From positions 1 to 40,214 of the forward strand of contig NZ_NTHN02000054.1 of the NCBI RefSeq assembly GCF_002300555.2: 40,214 nucleotides of DNA, given 5' to 3'. Below the pieces are notes generated by a model, which was not told the DNA's origin, searched no databases, and was given only the letters and a program-made list of their open reading frames with translations. Every line of letters begins with the position of its first letter. Positions within the stretch are counted from its first letter, which is position 1. This document shows positions 16,913 to 23,062 of this stretch, one piece after another. A program made the position numbers and the translations under genes. This stretch comes from Alloyangia mangrovi. Lineage in GTDB: Bacteria; Pseudomonadota; Alphaproteobacteria; Rhodobacterales; Rhodobacteraceae.

Positions 16913-17233
16913 CTTGCCCGACGTCCGGTCTGCAGGCCCTGAAATTCGCCTGTCCCCGCGGGGACACCCCCGGCTTTCAGCACGCACCGCCGCCCACTGT
17001 CCCCGCGGGGACAGCCCTGCGACGTGCGCATCGCCCGGTGTTTCCGCCCCTGTCCCCGCGGGGACAGCGCGGTTCGGCGGTTAGATCATCTCAGTATTAT
17101 GTAAAGAATAGCCACAGCTCCGGGCGCCCGGTCGGCAAGCCGCCGCTCGCCATACGCGAACACCTGCCAAATCTTTCCCGCTCAAGTGAAAATCGCGGTA
17201 TTAATGGGAGATTGACTGCACCGAAGGCTTTTG

Positions 17234-18751
17234 ATGTCCAGATTGTCCAGATACCCCGCCGGATTGCCCGCGCTCTTTCTCGTCGAGATGTGGGAACGTT
17301 TCAGCTACTACGGCATGCGGGCCATCCTCGTGCTGTACCTCGTCGACGCGGTGGAGACCGGCGGGATGGGGCTGGAGACCTCGGAGGCGGTGGCGATCTA
17401 CGGCATCTACACGGCGGCGGTCTACATCCTCGCGCTGCCCGGAGGCTGGGTGGCCGACCGCTTCTGGGGCGCGCGCAAGGCGGTGGCCGTTGGCGGTGCG
17501 GTGATCATCCTCGGGCACATCCTGCTGGCGATCTCGGGATCGATGGCCGCGATCTTCCTTGCGGGGCTCTGTTGCATCGCGGTGGGGACGGGGCTGCTGA
17601 AGCCCAATATCTCGACCATGGTCGGCGAGCTCTATCCCAAGGAGGATGTCGGCGGGCGCGACGCGGGCTTTTCGTTCTTCTACATGGGCATCAACCTCGG
17701 GGCGATCCTCGGCGGCTTCGTCGCGGGTTATCTCGGCGAAGTCTGGGGCTGGCACTGGGGCTTCGGCGCGGCGGCAGTGGCCATGGCCGTCGGGCTGCTC
17801 AACTTTTTCTACGCCGGTCAGCGCTCGTTGCGCGGCAAGGGCGAGCGACCGCCGCCCAAGGTGGTGGACGCGGCAACGCATCGGCGCGACCGCAGGGTGA
17901 GCCTCGGGATCACCGGCGCGGTGGTGGTGATCCTGGCGCTGCTGATCGGCACCGGGGTGATCGAGGTGACCAGCGCGGCAGGGGTGGCGCAGGCGACCGG
18001 CGTGCTGATCGTGACCGTCGCCGTGGGGTTCTTCCTCAATATCTACATCGCCGGGGACCTGTCGAAGGACGAGAAGAAGCGGATGATCGTGCTCGCCGTG
18101 CTCTTCGTCGCCGCGGCGGTCTTCTGGTCGCGCTTCGAGCAGGCGGGCTCGTCACTGTCGATCTTCGCCGCCGAGCTGACCAGCCGCGACCTCATGGGCT
18201 TCCAGGTACCGGCCTCGTGGTTCCAGAACCTCAACCCGGCCTTCATCATCCTGCTGACCCCGCTCTTCGCCTGGTTCTGGACGCGGGCGCAGGACCGGGG
18301 CTGGGAGATCTCGGTCTTCGTCAAGTTCGGGCTGGCGCTTGTGCTGGTGGGCCTCGGCTTCTGGATCCTCGTGCCGGCGGCGCAGATCGCGATGACCGGA
18401 GCGAAGGTCTCGGCGCTGTTCCTGATCTGCACCTTCTTCATCCACACCTGCGCCGAGCTGCTGCTCAGCCCGGTGGGCCTGTCGACCTTCTCGCGGCTCG
18501 CACCCGAGCGCTTTGTTAGCCAGATGATGGGCTTCTGGTTCCTCGCCGCCTCGCTCGGCAACCTGCTTGCAGGGCTGCTCGCGGCGGGCATGGACACCGA
18601 GACCCCCTCGGCGCTGCCGGGGCTGTTCAACCAACTGTTCTTCGGCAGCGCGATCGCCGGGCTCGTGCTGATCGCGCTGTCTTGGCCGCTGAGCCGCTGG
18701 GCGCTGTCCGGCAAGCCCCCGGTCGAGGAAGAACAGCGCCCGGTCCAATAG
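17234..18751 (+). CDS. POT/PTR2-family proton-dependent peptide transporter
   Basis: A 505-residue inner-membrane transporter for di- and tripeptides. The family signatures are clear: ALFLVEMWERFSYYGMRAIL in helix 1 (ExxERFxYY proton site), GLLKPNIST in helix 4, and the PTR2 signature FSFFYMGINLGAILGG. Twelve or more hydrophobic segments follow. Start: the ATG at 17234 (MSRLSRYPAG), with GAAGG about seven bases upstream; a TTG codon directly before it is not needed. It begins 168 bases after the last palindrome and is probably transcribed separately from par. Substrate range (peptides, possibly nitrate-like or amino-acid derivatives in relatives) cannot be fixed from sequence. Confidence 0.92.
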   Translation: MSRLSRYPAGLPALFLVEMWERFSYYGMRAILVLYLVDAVETGGMGLETSEAVAIYGIYTAAVYILALPGGWVADRFWGARKAVAVGGAVIILGHILLAISGSMAAIFLAGLCCIAVGTGLLKPNISTMVGELYPKEDVGGRDAGFSFFYMGINLGAILGGFVAGYLGEVWGWHWGFGAAAVAMAVGLLNFFYAGQRSLRGKGERPPPKVVDAATHRRDRRVSLGITGAVVVILALLIGTGVIEVTSAAGVAQATGVLIVTVAVGFFLNIYIAGDLSKDEKKRMIVLAVLFVAAAVFWSRFEQAGSSLSIFAAELTSRDLMGFQVPASWFQNLNPAFIILLTPLFAWFWTRAQDRGWEISVFVKFGLALVLVGLGFWILVPAAQIAMTGAKVSALFLICTFFIHTCAELLLSPVGLSTFSRLAPERFVSQMMGFWFLAASLGNLLAGLLAAGMDTETPSALPGLFNQLFFGSAIAGLVLIALSWPLSRWALSGKPPVEEEQRPVQ

Positions 18752-18809: not shown

Positions 18810-19199
18810 TCCGTCGCCGTGGTGCCCAAGTCTCGGGCGGCGTTGAACAAATCCTGCGGGTTTGGCGGCGCAACAATGTTCGCTGAGGTTCCTTTGACAG
18901 GCCGAGGGCACCTCCGGTCGTGACGTGGCGCGCAAATCACTATACCGTGGGGTGTGTCACAGGACATAGGGCGGGATTTGCGCTGGTTTTGGCCATGAGT
19001 CCTCGCCCGAAGGCCGTGATCATTTTGAACGATACGTTTAATTGAACTGATTTTTTTGGCGCGCTGCGGCGCGGGTACGGGAACGGTGTCACAGGCGTCA
19101 GTATCGGCGTGTCTCGGGATTTGTGCCGGGGCGGGGCGGGCGGCTGCTGCGAGTCCCGACGATTTCGAGCGGAGTAATTACATGGAGGAGAGCATCGTG
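18810..19199. other. Gene-free leader before the TetR-fusion gene
   Basis: No gene is supported. The stretch is locally AT-richer around 19020-19055 and holds a short palindrome (AACG-ATA-CGTT, 19028-19038), so it probably carries the promoter and operator of the downstream regulator. Open frames on the minus strand here run into the regulator gene and are not convincing. Confidence 0.4.
19028..19038. promoter_or_regulatory. Possible TetR-type operator
   Basis: AACG-ATA-CGTT, a short palindrome in the AT-richer leader 162 bases before the TetR-fusion start. TetR proteins often bind such palindromes in their own promoter. The site is short and unique in this leader, so the call is weak. Confidence 0.3.
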
Positions 19200-20843
19200 A
19201 TGAATTCCGGTCCGGCATCCGACGGCAATGGGACGGCACGTCGCCACTGGAAGCAGAATCCCGAAGCGGTGCGGGCGAACATCCTCGAGGTGGCCCGCAA
19301 GGCCTTTGTGGCGCACGGTCTGATCGGGGCGAAGATAGATGACATCGCGGCGGGGACCGAGACCTCGAAGCGGATGATCTACTATTACTTCGGCGACAAG
19401 GAAGGGCTCTACCGCGCGGTGCTGGAGGATGCCTATGCCCAGATGCGGGCCGCCGAGGACGATCTGGAGTTGGCAAGCCTGCACCCGGTCGAGGCGCTGC
19501 GGCGGCTGGCGGAATTCACCTTCGACCACCATGCCTCGCACGCGGATTTCGTGCGGCTGGTGATGGTCGAGAACATGCACAATGCGCGTCACATGCAGAA
19601 GGCGGGCGACCTGTCGGGCCAGAACATCTCGGCGATCCGGCTGCTCGACGAAATCTACCAGCGCGGCTGCGCCGAGGGGCTGTTTCGCCGCGGGCTCACC
19701 GCGCTCGAGCTGCATTGGCATATCTCGGCGCTGGCGATCTTCAACGTCGCCAACCGGGCGACCTTTTCCAGCCTCTTCGGCGGCTCGCTCTTCGAGCCCA
19801 AGGGCCAGCAGCAGTTGCGCCGGCATGTCGGGGACATGCTGTTGCGCTTCGTGATGAAGCCGGGGCTTTCGGTCGAGGAGGCCTCGACCAAGCCGATCGC
19901 CGAGGCGCGGGCCATCCATCCCGACATCTACCGGTTCCGCGAGACCTGGGACGCCACCTGGGCGACGCTGCCGACCGAGGGCGACGCGGCCACCCGGCGG
20001 CTGCATTTCGAATCCGTCTCGCGTTCGCTGCGACTGCCGAGCCCGGAGGGGGTGGAGACCGACGAGGAGCATTGGATCGACACCGAATGCGGCCCGGTGC
20101 GGGTGCGGCTGTTCCGGCCTCCCGGCGCCGAGCCGCTGCCGGGACTGGTGTTCCTGCACGGCGGCGCCTGGCGCCAGGGCAGCCCCGAGACCCATTGGAA
20201 CATCACCGCGCGGCTCGCGGCATGGTCCGGGTCCCTGGTGATCTCGGTGGATTACGCCTTGGCGCCCGAGCATACCTATCCCGAGGCGCTGCAGCAGGTC
20301 CCGGCGGTGCTCGACTGGGCGCGGGATCATGCCGGGGTGCTGGGGCTGGACCCGGACCGGCTGTCGATCGGCGGTGACGGGGCAGGGGCCAACCTTGCCG
20401 CCGCCGCCACGCTGATCTGCCGAGATGCCGGGGTGAAGCTGGCGGCGCAGCTGCTGATCTACCCGGTCTGCGATTTCGACACCACGCGGCCGTCCTGCGC
20501 GGAATATGCCGAAGGTCCGCTCTGGACGCTGGCGCAGCTGCTGTCGGCGCATGCGCAATATTGCCCCGACACCACCCGGCGGCTGAGCGATCCGCTGATT
20601 TCGCCATTGCTGGCGCGCGATCACGCGGGGCTGCCTCCCGCCTACCTGGCGTTGGCCGAGCACGACCCGCTGCGCGACAGCGGCATCGCCTATGCCGAGG
20701 CGCTGCGGGCCGCCGGTGTCGCGGTGGAGGTGGATGCCGGCAAGGGGCTGGTGCGCGACTACCTGCACGCCATCGGCTTCGGCAGCGCCGCCGAGGACCG
20801 GCTGCGCGAGATGAGCGCCTGGCTGAAGACACTGGCGGGGTAG
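19200..20843 (+). CDS. TetR-family regulator fused to an alpha/beta-hydrolase-like domain (nucleophile Ser replaced by Gly)
   Basis: A 547-residue two-part protein. Residues about 24-72 are a TetR helix-turn-helix (KIDDIAAGTETSKRMIYYYFGDKEGLY), followed by the all-helical ligand/dimer domain to about 225. Residues about 300-547 are an HSL-type esterase fold: oxyanion motif HGGAW at 320-324, the elbow GGDGAGAN at 391-398 where family enzymes have GDSAG, Asp489 in AEHDPL and His523 in YLHAIGF. Gly394 replaces the serine nucleophile, so ester hydrolysis is not expected; the domain more likely binds a small ester-like or hydrophobic ligand. The frame is continuous, with no stop or restart. GGAGGAG nine bases before ATG 19200 supports that start; ATG 19182 is an alternative. 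It is convergent with the Slam gene. Confidence 0.88.
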   Translation: MNSGPASDGNGTARRHWKQNPEAVRANILEVARKAFVAHGLIGAKIDDIAAGTETSKRMIYYYFGDKEGLYRAVLEDAYAQMRAAEDDLELASLHPVEALRRLAEFTFDHHASHADFVRLVMVENMHNARHMQKAGDLSGQNISAIRLLDEIYQRGCAEGLFRRGLTALELHWHISALAIFNVANRATFSSLFGGSLFEPKGQQQLRRHVGDMLLRFVMKPGLSVEEASTKPIAEARAIHPDIYRFRETWDATWATLPTEGDAATRRLHFESVSRSLRLPSPEGVETDEEHWIDTECGPVRVRLFRPPGAEPLPGLVFLHGGAWRQGSPETHWNITARLAAWSGSLVISVDYALAPEHTYPEALQQVPAVLDWARDHAGVLGLDPDRLSIGGDGAGANLAAAATLICRDAGVKLAAQLLIYPVCDFDTTRPSCAEYAEGPLWTLAQLLSAHAQYCPDTTRRLSDPLISPLLARDHAGLPPAYLALAEHDPLRDSGIAYAEALRAAGVAVEVDAGKGLVRDYLHAIGFGSAAEDRLREMSAWLKTLAG

Positions 20844-20876: not shown

Positions 20877-22166
20877 TCAGAAGGCGCTGGTCAGCCCGGC
20901 GCTGAGCCGCAGGTCGCGGTAGCTGTAGGCGTCGAAGGGGCTTTCGCGCCGCGCTGCTTCGATCTGCACGTAGGGGGTGAGCCTGCTGAAGAGGAAGGTG
21001 TCGGTCTTGTCGATGCGCAGCTCGAGCCCGTATTCGGTCTCGTGGCGGGCTTCGCCGAGGATCGGGTTCGCGCCGATCTGGTCGTAGGCGGCGGCATAGG
21101 CGGAAGGCTCCAGCAGGAAGCCGCCGCCCACCTCGACCCGGCCGGCGAGGCGCAGCTCGGCGTAGTCGTAGGAGAGGTCGTCGCGCTCCGCCTCCTGGTG
21201 CTGCAGCGACAGGCTGCCGCCGATCTGGGCGCGGCCGCGCAGCGGGCGGATCACCGTGAGCTTGGCGCTGGCGCGCTGCACGTCGATACCCGGATAGCGC
21301 TCGAGGTCGACGTCGTGCCATTCGGCCTCGAGCGTGGTGGTGAGACCCGAGGCCGTGCGCCAGCTGACGCCGGCACCTATGCCGAGACGGTCCTCGACTT
21401 TTTCGCCGCCGAAGTAGTCGGTCCCGGCGATGGCCTCGGCCCAGGCGGTGGTCTGCGGCCATGTGAGCTGCAGGCCGGCGCTGAGATCGGTGCCGAACTC
21501 GTCCCAGTCGCTGCCGGAGGTCTGGTAGAGATCGCCCTCGGCCTGCAGGTAGCCGGTCAGCCGGGCACCGCCTCGGCGCGCGTGCAGCGGCCATTGCTTG
21601 CGGATCGCGCCCGAAAGCTCGAGCCCGGTGAGCGGCGCCTCGTCGCGGTCCATCGTCAGGACCGCGGGGCCGTTGACGGATCGGACCTCGATCTCGTCGC
21701 TGTCGTAGCTGCGTCCGGCGCCCTCGGGGGCGCGCAGTGCAAAGGAGAAGCGGCTGCGCAGCCCCTGCCGCTCGTCGATGGCGCGCAGGAAGCGCAGCAC
21801 GTTGGCGCGCACCGCCGGGGGCAGGTCGGGGCTGGAGAGAACGATGCGGAACTGCTCGCGCGATTGGGCATATTCGCCGGCCTCGAAGAGCGCGCGCGCC
21901 AGCTCGAGCCGCACGCGCAGCAGGCCGGGATCGACGGCAAGCAAGCCGCGCAGCAGGCGCACGGCGGCCTCGGGCCGGCCACTGGAGAGGGCGGACATGG
22001 CCTGCTGGAAACGGGCCTCCATCTGGGTCGGGGCAGGGGAGGCGGGGGCGGGGGAGACGGGGGCAGGGACAGCGGCCTGCTGGGCCTGCGCCCCGGGTGC
22101 CCCGGCCACCGGCGACATCGCGGCAAGCGCGAGCGCGGTGGCCAGGGCCCGTGACGGGCGGGGCAT
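20877..22166 (-). CDS. Slam-like outer-membrane translocator (type XI secretion)
   Basis: A 429-residue protein with a signal peptide (cleavage likely after AQA near residue 28), a Pro/Ala linker, a TPR-like helical domain at about 50-130 (FQQAMSALSSGRPEAAVRLL, LELARALFEAGEYAQSREQF), and a C-terminal beta-barrel of alternating strands ending in aromatic Phe (LRLSAGLTSAF). This is the layout of surface-lipoprotein assembly modulators (DUF560), which move lipoproteins to the outer face of the outer membrane. It begins two bases after the stop of the lipoprotein gene, so the two are one operon and the lipoprotein is the likely cargo. No iron- or heme-receptor gene is adjacent. Confidence 0.82.
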   Translation of the reverse strand: MPRPSRALATALALAAMSPVAGAPGAQAQQAAVPAPVSPAPASPAPTQMEARFQQAMSALSSGRPEAAVRLLRGLLAVDPGLLRVRLELARALFEAGEYAQSREQFRIVLSSPDLPPAVRANVLRFLRAIDERQGLRSRFSFALRAPEGAGRSYDSDEIEVRSVNGPAVLTMDRDEAPLTGLELSGAIRKQWPLHARRGGARLTGYLQAEGDLYQTSGSDWDEFGTDLSAGLQLTWPQTTAWAEAIAGTDYFGGEKVEDRLGIGAGVSWRTASGLTTTLEAEWHDVDLERYPGIDVQRASAKLTVIRPLRGRAQIGGSLSLQHQEAERDDLSYDYAELRLAGRVEVGGGFLLEPSAYAAAYDQIGANPILGEARHETEYGLELRIDKTDTFLFSRLTPYVQIEAARRESPFDAYSYRDLRLSAGLTSAF

Positions 22167-22168
22167 GG

Positions 22169-23062
22169 TCAGCGGCTGCTGTCGACCGCGCCGAAGGCGC
22201 CGAAGTAGGTGCTGTCGGCGGTGCTGCCCGAGAAGGTGCCGCCCACCTCCTGCGCGTTGTCGCCGTAGAACTGCCCATTGACCGAGCCGGTCAGCACGCC
22301 GGTGTCGATGTCCGCGCCAAAGCCGGTGCCGCTGACGCTGCCGGCGGTGTAGAAGTCGAGATCGGAGCGGTCGCCGGTGATCGCCCCGGTGACCGGGTCG
22401 GCGGTGACGGTGTCGCTGCTGTAGACCTCGACCGTGTCGAAATCGGTGTCCACCGCGATGTAGGAGGTGGTCATCTCCACCTTGTCGCCGGTGATCACAT
22501 GGCCAAGGCTGTCGCCGTAGTAGCTGGCCGTGCCCGAGGTCGGCATCTGGCTCTCCGAGGTGCGCACGCCGATCGATCCGGCCCCGGCGACACGCGAGGT
22601 GCCGTTGAGCCCGGATTGCCAGGCGCCGAAGCTCTGGTAACTGTAGCCGCCCTTCGTGGGGTCCGCGGCCACCAGCATGACATCGCCATCAGCACTTGTG
22701 GCAAGGATGCCGTTGAGCACAGTGCTGACGTCGAAACTGTCGCCGCCAGCGGTGGAGAGGCTGACCGTGCCCTTGCTGGTGGTCAGCGTCACGGCGCTCA
22801 GCTCGCCGCCCTCGTAGGTCATGTCTGCGGTAATGTCGCTCTCGGTCTCGGGCGTGCCGAAGGCGAGCACGTTGCCCGCCGCATCGGTGGTGTAGCCCGA
22901 GGAGACGGCCATGCCGTTGGCGCGGTAGGTGCCGTCTTCGGGGGAGGTCATATCGGTGAGTGGGGTGATGGCGCTCGACGAGCTGCTGCGGGCGCTGGTC
23001 TTGCCGTCGCTGCAGGCTGCCAGGAGCGCCAACGCGGCTGTACCGACTAAAACGTACTTCAT
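22169..23062 (-). CDS. TbpB-like surface lipoprotein, probable Slam substrate
   Basis: A 297-residue lipoprotein. The signal peptide ends in a lipobox LAAC with Cys17 as the lipidated residue, followed by a Ser-rich tether. The rest is beta-rich with Gly/Thr/Ser repeats and ends in GGTFSGSTADSTYFGAFGA, the closing strand pattern of transferrin-binding-protein-like barrel domains that Slam proteins recognise. It is probably displayed on the cell surface and may bind a host- or environment-derived ligand; no ligand can be named. The start is supported by GAGGAATT directly before the ATG. It is the first gene of a two-gene operon with the Slam-like translocator. Confidence 0.8.
   Translation of the reverse strand: MKYVLVGTAALALLAACSDGKTSARSSSSSAITPLTDMTSPEDGTYRANGMAVSSGYTTDAAGNVLAFGTPETESDITADMTYEGGELSAVTLTTSKGTVSLSTAGGDSFDVSTVLNGILATSADGDVMLVAADPTKGGYSYQSFGAWQSGLNGTSRVAGAGSIGVRTSESQMPTSGTASYYGDSLGHVITGDKVEMTTSYIAVDTDFDTVEVYSSDTVTADPVTGAITGDRSDLDFYTAGSVSGTGFGADIDTGVLTGSVNGQFYGDNAQEVGGTFSGSTADSTYFGAFGAVDSSR

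Follow-up and report, generated by a model that had tools for sequence, protein, structure and literature searches.

Can a transcriptional repressor use an esterase domain that has lost its catalytic residues to sense a ligand, or is such a domain simply carried along? This question is raised by a gene of the marine bacterium Alloyangia mangrovi lying within a stretch of 40,214 nucleotides, the whole of which is called here the window. An earlier note on this DNA had described a TetR regulator continuing in frame into an HSL-type esterase domain with the nucleophile Ser changed to Gly, and had proposed that the dead esterase serves as a sensor, as does GID1 in plants. The main features are collected in Table 1. 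Our best reading, at a probability of about 0.5, is that of an autoregulated TetR-type repressor, descended from the regulator of a quinate/shikimate-type locus, with a non-catalytic and probably ligand-binding esterase domain.

Table 1. Features of the fusion locus and of one related gene (positions in the window unless a contig is named; live fusions are those with an intact Ser-Asp-His triad)
Feature	Position	Strand	Remarks
POT-family peptide:H+ symporter	17231..18751	+	Upstream neighbour of the fusion, conserved synteny
Weak second operator-like element	18874..18895	+	Score 9.6; precedes the main site by about 149 bp
Operator-like imperfect palindrome TTTTGAACGATACGTTTAATTG	19023..19044	+	Within the leader of the fusion gene itself; motif derived from 79 upstream regions
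Possible 5' extension	19182..19199	+	Start ATG 19182 or GTG 19197; ATGGAGGA conserved in relatives (leader alignment)
TetR-Abhydrolase_3 fusion gene	19200..20843	+	Single frame, 547 aa counted from ATG 19200
TetR_N (residues 28-74) and TetR_C_29 (residues 96-213)	19281..19838	+	Pfam
HSL-type alpha/beta-hydrolase domain	19911..20834	+	Residues 238-545; Pfam stretch 316-520
HGGAW motif (oxyanion hole), intact	20157..20171	+	Residues 320-324
Asn334	20199..20201	+	Asp in live fusions; Asn in 0/86 (best 120 of 634 matches)
Gly394 at the nucleophile position (GDGAGAN)	20379..20381	+	Alignment to 2hm7 and fusion alignment
Asp489, catalytic acid position, intact	20664..20666	+	Alignment to 2hm7 and fusion alignment
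Arg519-Asp520	20754..20759	+	Live fusions have the catalytic His, then (99%) Gly here
Slam-type pair	20877-23062	-	SlipAM-like outer-membrane protein and TbpB-barrel lipoprotein; adjoins the fusion in 7/7 genomes
Stand-alone intact esterase	G000:C81:53926-54855		48% identity; GDSAG and GLIHGY present

A single frame for two domains

The in-frame fusion of a TetR regulator to an esterase-fold domain is confirmed: the frame contains no stop between the two domains, and the TetR_N, TetR_C_29 and Abhydrolase_3 models each exceed their Pfam cut-off, with 41.7 bits against 24 for the TetR_N helix-turn-helix domain. There are three in-frame start candidates, ATG 19182, GTG 19197 and ATG 19200, and the conserved ATGGAGGA...GTG in the leaders of relatives fits better with a start at 19197 or 19182 than at 19200. 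The scores do not support identity with RutR (41.2 bits against an NCBIfam equivalog cut-off of 368) or LipP1 (235.6 bits against 350).

The distribution of the fusion is patchy. Among 295 genomes sampled from the family, 10 have any match to it at E 1e-110, three of these matches covering the esterase part only and one having an in-frame stop. Within the genus (Salipiger/Alloyangia), 7 of 20 genomes carry the fusion.

Loss of the catalytic residues

The protein alignment comprised 121 proteins, namely the query and the 120 best listed of 634 matches at E 1e-10 (8000 candidates scored), of which 99 are full-length fusions, longer than 500 residues and with both domains. Aligned to the carboxylesterase chain 2hm7, Gly394 falls on residue 155, Asp489 on residue 252 and Arg519 on residue 282. 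We take this chain to be an Est2 variant and its Ser155, Asp252 and His282 to be the catalytic triad. The replacement of the nucleophile by Gly394 is borne out by both alignments, and HGGAW and Asp489 are intact, as the earlier note had stated. Its assignment of an intact catalytic His at residue 523 does not hold: the true column is that of Arg519, occupied by His in 91 of the 99 fusions and by Arg in 8 Salipiger/Alloyangia rows (best 120 of 634 matches). With Gly394 at the Ser position and Arg519 at the His position, two of the three catalytic residues are therefore lost. As an HSL-type esterase, the domain thus has the HGG oxyanion-hole motif and lacks both the GxSxG Ser and the catalytic His. 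Gly394 and Arg519 recur in all 14 Salipiger/Alloyangia rows (10 non-identical, 8 after dropping near copies over 95%), which excludes a sequencing error.

The catalytic triad reads S-D-H in 86 of the 99 fusions, G-D-R in 8, G-D-H in 4 and N-D-H in 1 (best 120 of 634 matches). The G-D-R fusions are the 8 Salipiger/Alloyangia rows, P0001 and P0002 being near copies. Stand-alone relatives of 300-329 residues have S-D-H in 17 of 17 cases (best 120 of 634). Residue 394 is thus far from always non-Ser in such fusions, and the idea that the TetR-esterase architecture is itself a dead-sensor design is not supported. Fused homologs combining an unchanged GDSAG with esterase activity had been named as a finding that would refute the sensor idea; half of this, the intact triad, is what the 86 fusions display for the family. 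The Salipiger/Alloyangia clade is derived.

Quinate-type loci as the probable origin

A scan of genome contigs gave 336 related stretches, the best 80 of which were kept and yielded 78 loci, or 79 with the window; gene context was counted by tblastn in the 78 fetched loci and the window. These 79 loci (best 80 of 336) comprise 18 live fusions, 2 dead fusions of Martelella (one of the two records being marked unverified), 4 dead fusions of Salipiger/Alloyangia including the window, 16 loci with TetR and esterase in neighbouring frames, 5 with the two genes apart and 33 with TetR only; L049, where an esterase alone lies close to the border of the stretch fetched, was left out of the context classes.

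The same kinds of neighbours recur outside Salipiger/Alloyangia. Among the same best 80 of 336 stretches, a dehydrogenase-like gene (shikimate/quinate) is found in 18/18 live, 2/2 Martelella, 16/16 two-frame, 5/5 apart and 30/33 TetR-only loci; TRAP genes in 18/18, 2/2, 15/16, 5/5 and 22/33; and a dehydratase/HPPD-like gene in 11/18, 2/2, 9/16, 3/5 and 27/33, respectively. Each of the three is present in 0/4 Salipiger/Alloyangia loci, and no shikimate/quinate-type gene was found beside the dead fusion in these four or in the stretches of the six other Salipiger/Alloyangia genomes with the fusion. A dehydrogenase-like, dehydratase or dehydroquinase gene is present in 32 of the 33 TetR-only loci, in whose fetched flanks no esterase relative was found (best 80 of 336). 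Pfam models identified in reference members of the relatives' loci are Shikimate_dh_N, DctP, DctM, DUF3237, DHquinase_II and an AP_endonuc_2 + Glyoxalase_5 pair. The substrate domain of the dehydrogenase-like neighbour reaches 82 bits (cut-off 27), and the C-terminal models for the same protein fall below their cut-offs. The AP_endonuc_2 + Glyoxalase_5 pair is the QuiC1/QsuB architecture of quinate/shikimate degradation, as given in an excerpt of PMC7442255. From these neighbours, we infer that the relatives' loci serve quinate/shikimate-type catabolism. They point to compounds of this type as the ligand, which is thus less open than the earlier note had it.

In the two-frame loci, the TetR stop overlaps the first esterase start by 4 bases in 7 of 16 cases (best 80 of 336), a count that hangs on start-codon choice, with L030 as an eighth case if a later start is taken. 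This overlap suggests a plain route to fusion, the presumed direction of change being from separate to fused genes.

How often and when catalysis was lost

All trees were obtained by a quick method, with SH-aLRT as the sole support measure. In the tree of the 99 fusions (best 120 of 634 matches), the 13 Ser-less rows need about four changes, three of which are forced by well-supported branches. P0021, P0030 and P0052 are further fusions without the nucleophile Ser, located elsewhere in the tree. The joint tree left out P0052 (long branch), P0002 and the rows after P0058; the later TetR-only and esterase-only trees left out P0002 and the rows after P0046, and an earlier esterase tree, which included P0052, left out the fused loci repeating P rows.

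A group uniting Salipiger/Alloyangia, Martelella and the live P0013 (Pseudooceanicola sediminis) has a support of 99 in both the joint and the TetR-only trees, and the esterase-only data agree with it when constrained to it. The dead Salipiger/Alloyangia and Martelella fusions form one clade with a support of 94 in the joint tree and 27 in the esterase-only tree; in the TetR-only tree P0013 falls inside the dead group, the dead clade still not being rejected (p-AU 0.216). With P0052 included, the esterase-only tree does not place P0013 beside the dead groups; with P0052 removed, forcing them together is no worse. The TetR-only and esterase-only tests therefore lower the certainty of a single Ser loss common to Martelella and Salipiger/Alloyangia, which is not secure, and leave the odds of the main reading unchanged. 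If there was one loss, Ser would have disappeared while the gene was still in a quinate-type locus, as in L006 and L009, and His later. The stem branches of the dead groups are long, at 0.57 and 0.66 compared with a median of 0.19 for end branches.

Two further substitutions accompany the loss of Ser. Asp520 is found in 11/13 Ser-less and 0/86 Ser-bearing fusions, and Asn334 in 9/13 and 0/86 (best 120 of 634 matches); P0030 carries both, yet sits in another part of the trees. We read this recurrence, which takes two events for each residue on the joint tree, as a probable sign of remodelling, not decay.

Selection on the dead domain

Rough dN/dS values were obtained by simple counting. The six pairs among the window, L001, L002 and L003 give 0.20-0.25 for the esterase part, 0.23-0.29 for its core (300-530) and 0.08-0.11 for the TetR part, and the dead pair L006-L009 gives 0.16 for the esterase and 0.06 for TetR. 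Seven of eight live pairs range from 0.06 to 0.19 (esterase) and from 0 to 0.13 (TetR), the eighth, L008-L012, reaching 0.30 and 0.26; four distant pairs, dead versus other form, give 0.32-0.39 and 0.18-0.32. The dN/dS of the dead domain is thus about double that of the TetR part when the same pairs are compared, and it exceeds the values of seven of the eight live pairs. On these counts, it is under purifying selection, though relaxed.

Among the eight dead rows, the active-site surroundings are invariant at 38 of 48 positions, versus 159 of 260 elsewhere in the domain (p 0.02), a test whose bias favours invariance, three of its eight centres (334, 394 and 519) having been seen beforehand to be fixed in the clade. 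In matched live groups (605, overlapping), the invariant fraction averages 0.86 near the active site (range 0.79-0.94) against 0.58 elsewhere, so that the dead value of 0.79 stands at their low end.

A predicted operator in the leader

An expectation-maximisation (EM) search for palindromes over the 79 upstream regions returned a motif resembling TTGTAC-N6-GTTAATT, which frequently occurs twice with a spacing of about 28-31 bp, as well as motifs with lower totals. With a matrix derived from half of the non-Salipiger loci, 38 of 38 held-out upstream regions score at least 15, versus 22 of 1939 randomly drawn pieces. Some of these pieces may themselves overlap with true sites, and the full matrix had served to locate the training sites. 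When the matrix was built without the Salipiger/Alloyangia loci, the best site of the window was the one at 19023, equalled in 0 (direct) or 1 (palindromic) of 2000 shuffles. All seven dead-fusion leaders hold a site scoring at least 19.5, and in the leader alignment the site at 19023 stands out as a conserved island amid otherwise changed sequence. Six of the 7 genomes have its clade form, at up to two mismatches, before the fusion gene; the leader of G016 lacks it and has a different family-type site. At three mismatches, the clade form has three more matches elsewhere, in G007, G012 and G016, that of G012 being near its stand-alone TetR. No promoter-like or terminator-like match was found in the fusion leader. 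The fusion likely represses its own transcription through this predicted operator.

The core of the weaker upstream element, ATGT(T/A)CG (ATGTTCG in the window), is conserved in the clade according to the leader alignment. One member of the dead clade, P0008, has an altered recognition region (YYDFGDTAGLC).

Related loci and possible targets

A scan of the whole genome (5.5 Mb) with the degenerate form and no mismatches, which misses sites more degenerate than this form, gave five sites: one at the TetR gene of contig C81, two at that of C91, one in the window and one in C128. The latter sits inside murJ and was taken as a chance match. All three regulators of this genome have the recognition helix TSKRMI(Y/F)Y in common. 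The C81 locus (L087 5430-10661) contains an intact esterase, DUF3237, a TRAP transporter and a more distant TetR with a family-type operator; no shikimate dehydrogenase match was found in this stretch. The earlier note had spoken of the absence of a paired enzyme; the genome does contain this stand-alone relative with an intact GDSAG. The C91 locus (L088 7260-13827) is of the quinate/shikimate type, with a stand-alone TetR (55%), a dehydrogenase, TRAP genes and a dehydratase. Its TetR gene is preceded by two strong predicted operators and a weaker third. Such a third operator-like site before the stand-alone TetR occurs in 4 of 6 fusion genomes (two of them weak), two sites being found in the five fusion-less genomes; this may reflect kinship only.

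Two targets other than its own gene can be considered for the fusion protein. The dead fusion lies between the POT and SlipAM genes in 7/7 Salipiger/Alloyangia genomes, the window and six others, which include those of L001-L003. The constant position of the POT gene upstream and in the same orientation in all seven could suggest a local regulator of this transporter responding to a peptide-derived ligand. This is very unlikely, since none of the eight best-scoring sites of the window lies upstream of POT, the sole strong one being in the fusion leader; moreover, the gap extends to about 1.35 kb in L124 (same protein as P0006, the record of P0006 being named plasmid), and the flanks fetched for the remaining 74 loci contain no POT gene (best 80 of 336 stretches). 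A role exerted chiefly in trans, at the quinate-type locus of C91, for example in competition with its stand-alone TetR, appears less remote but still unlikely. The common recognition helix and the similar operators would allow it, and a stand-alone TetR relative (E 1e-60 or better) occurs in 6/7 fusion versus 5/13 fusion-less genomes. This co-occurrence is not significant (Fisher p 0.07) and not corrected for kinship, and the context was checked in the window's genome; furthermore, one C91 site is three positions off the clade form, and the other is absent at three mismatches.

Receptor or passenger

The sequences themselves establish the fusion, the loss of Ser and His, the kinship to regulators of quinate-type loci, the family-type operator and the purifying selection. 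The interpretation proposed earlier keeps its fused regulator, its esterase domain devoid of nucleophile and base, its operator and its conservation by selection, and loses the architecture-wide dead design. In the proposed history, the ancestor would have regulated a quinate/shikimate-type catabolic locus, whose esterase gene adjoined the TetR gene, with the 4-base overlap still seen in some relatives, before the two fused, presumably in that order. In the line leading to Martelella and Salipiger/Alloyangia, Gly would have replaced Ser, and Asp the residue that follows the catalytic His, in the simplest case a single time. The Salipiger/Alloyangia forms would have exchanged His for Arg, with relocation of the gene between the POT transporter and the Slam-type surface lipoprotein locus. 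The present protein would dimerise on 19023-19044 and repress its own transcription, while the non-hydrolysing esterase domain would bind an ester or hydroaromatic ligand and signal to the TetR part. The protein may, in addition, be a competitor for the similar C91 operators.

The strongest objection to a sensor comes from the 33 TetR-only relatives, 32 of them at quinate-type loci (best 80 of 336), whose existence suggests that the TetR part is able to function by itself. These relatives likely sense through the TetR_C_29 pocket, and the ligand may therefore bind the TetR_C_29 part. The dead esterase domain could then be a passenger serving folding or dimer stability, with all sensing done by that pocket, a possible but rather doubtful account that would also be favoured by the weaker constraint acting on the esterase part and by the length of the stems of the dead groups. 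It fits less well with the 8-10 distinct proteins that keep the full domain open, the four compared showing purifying selection, with the intact HGGAW and Asp489, or with the recurrence of Asp520 and Asn334 in separate Ser-less lines. The intact HGG motif and acid might also be taken as signs of hydrolysis by some mechanism dispensing with a Ser nucleophile; with nucleophile and base both missing throughout the Salipiger/Alloyangia clade, this is extremely improbable. Beyond the main reading of a repressor with a probably ligand-binding dead domain, a broader scenario is put forward tentatively: the repressor would have captured the esterase of its own pathway and turned it repeatedly and independently into a receptor, the live fusions being hydrolysing sensors and those of Salipiger/Alloyangia and Martelella pure receptors.

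Comparison with known systems

The fusion has the DNA-binding and C-terminal domains of the TetR_C_29 subgroup of the TetR family (PF00440 + PF17938), with a palindromic operator-like site by its own gene. It differs by an extra alpha/beta-hydrolase domain of about 310 residues, whereas 3npi, the single chain called TetR in the list of 60 solved sequences, has only 251 residues. With bacterial HSL-type esterases (Abhydrolase_3; 2hm7, LipP1), it has in common the fold family, the HGG motif and the Asp, but not the nucleophile Ser and the catalytic His. The gibberellin receptor GID1 of plants has an HSL-type hydrolase fold that lost catalysis. The fusion may work like it, since it also has an HSL-related domain with lost catalytic residues and a proposed receptor role; here, in contrast, the dead domain is joined to a DNA-binding domain, with no partner protein known.

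The fungal quinate repressor QutR/QA-1S is a relative of the shikimate-pathway protein AROM, and its target is an activator protein, according to an excerpt of PMC10512348. Here, an esterase domain is attached to a DNA-binding repressor, and the two systems are not homologous as far as the named domains indicate. The two-domain dehydroshikimate dehydratase QuiC1/QsuB (PMC7442255) has the same dehydratase + HPPD-like architecture as the protein neighbouring the relatives' regulators, where it is an adjacent enzyme and not the regulator. Among the matches listed from open-licence PMC (titles and beginnings of abstracts), none concerned a TetR-esterase fusion, or this TetR group at quinate loci.

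Living genomes appear to display a whole series leading to a one-component regulator, from separate genes to overlapping genes, fusion, lost catalysis and relocation. Should the dead domain be a sensor, bacteria would have their own equivalent of the receptors built from dead hydrolases, for which the intact relatives provide built-in controls, next to a predicted operator and a small set of candidate ligands. If the repeated conversion of a captured esterase into a receptor is true, one family would hold both stages of a plant-like change from a hydrolase type to a dead-hydrolase hormone receptor.
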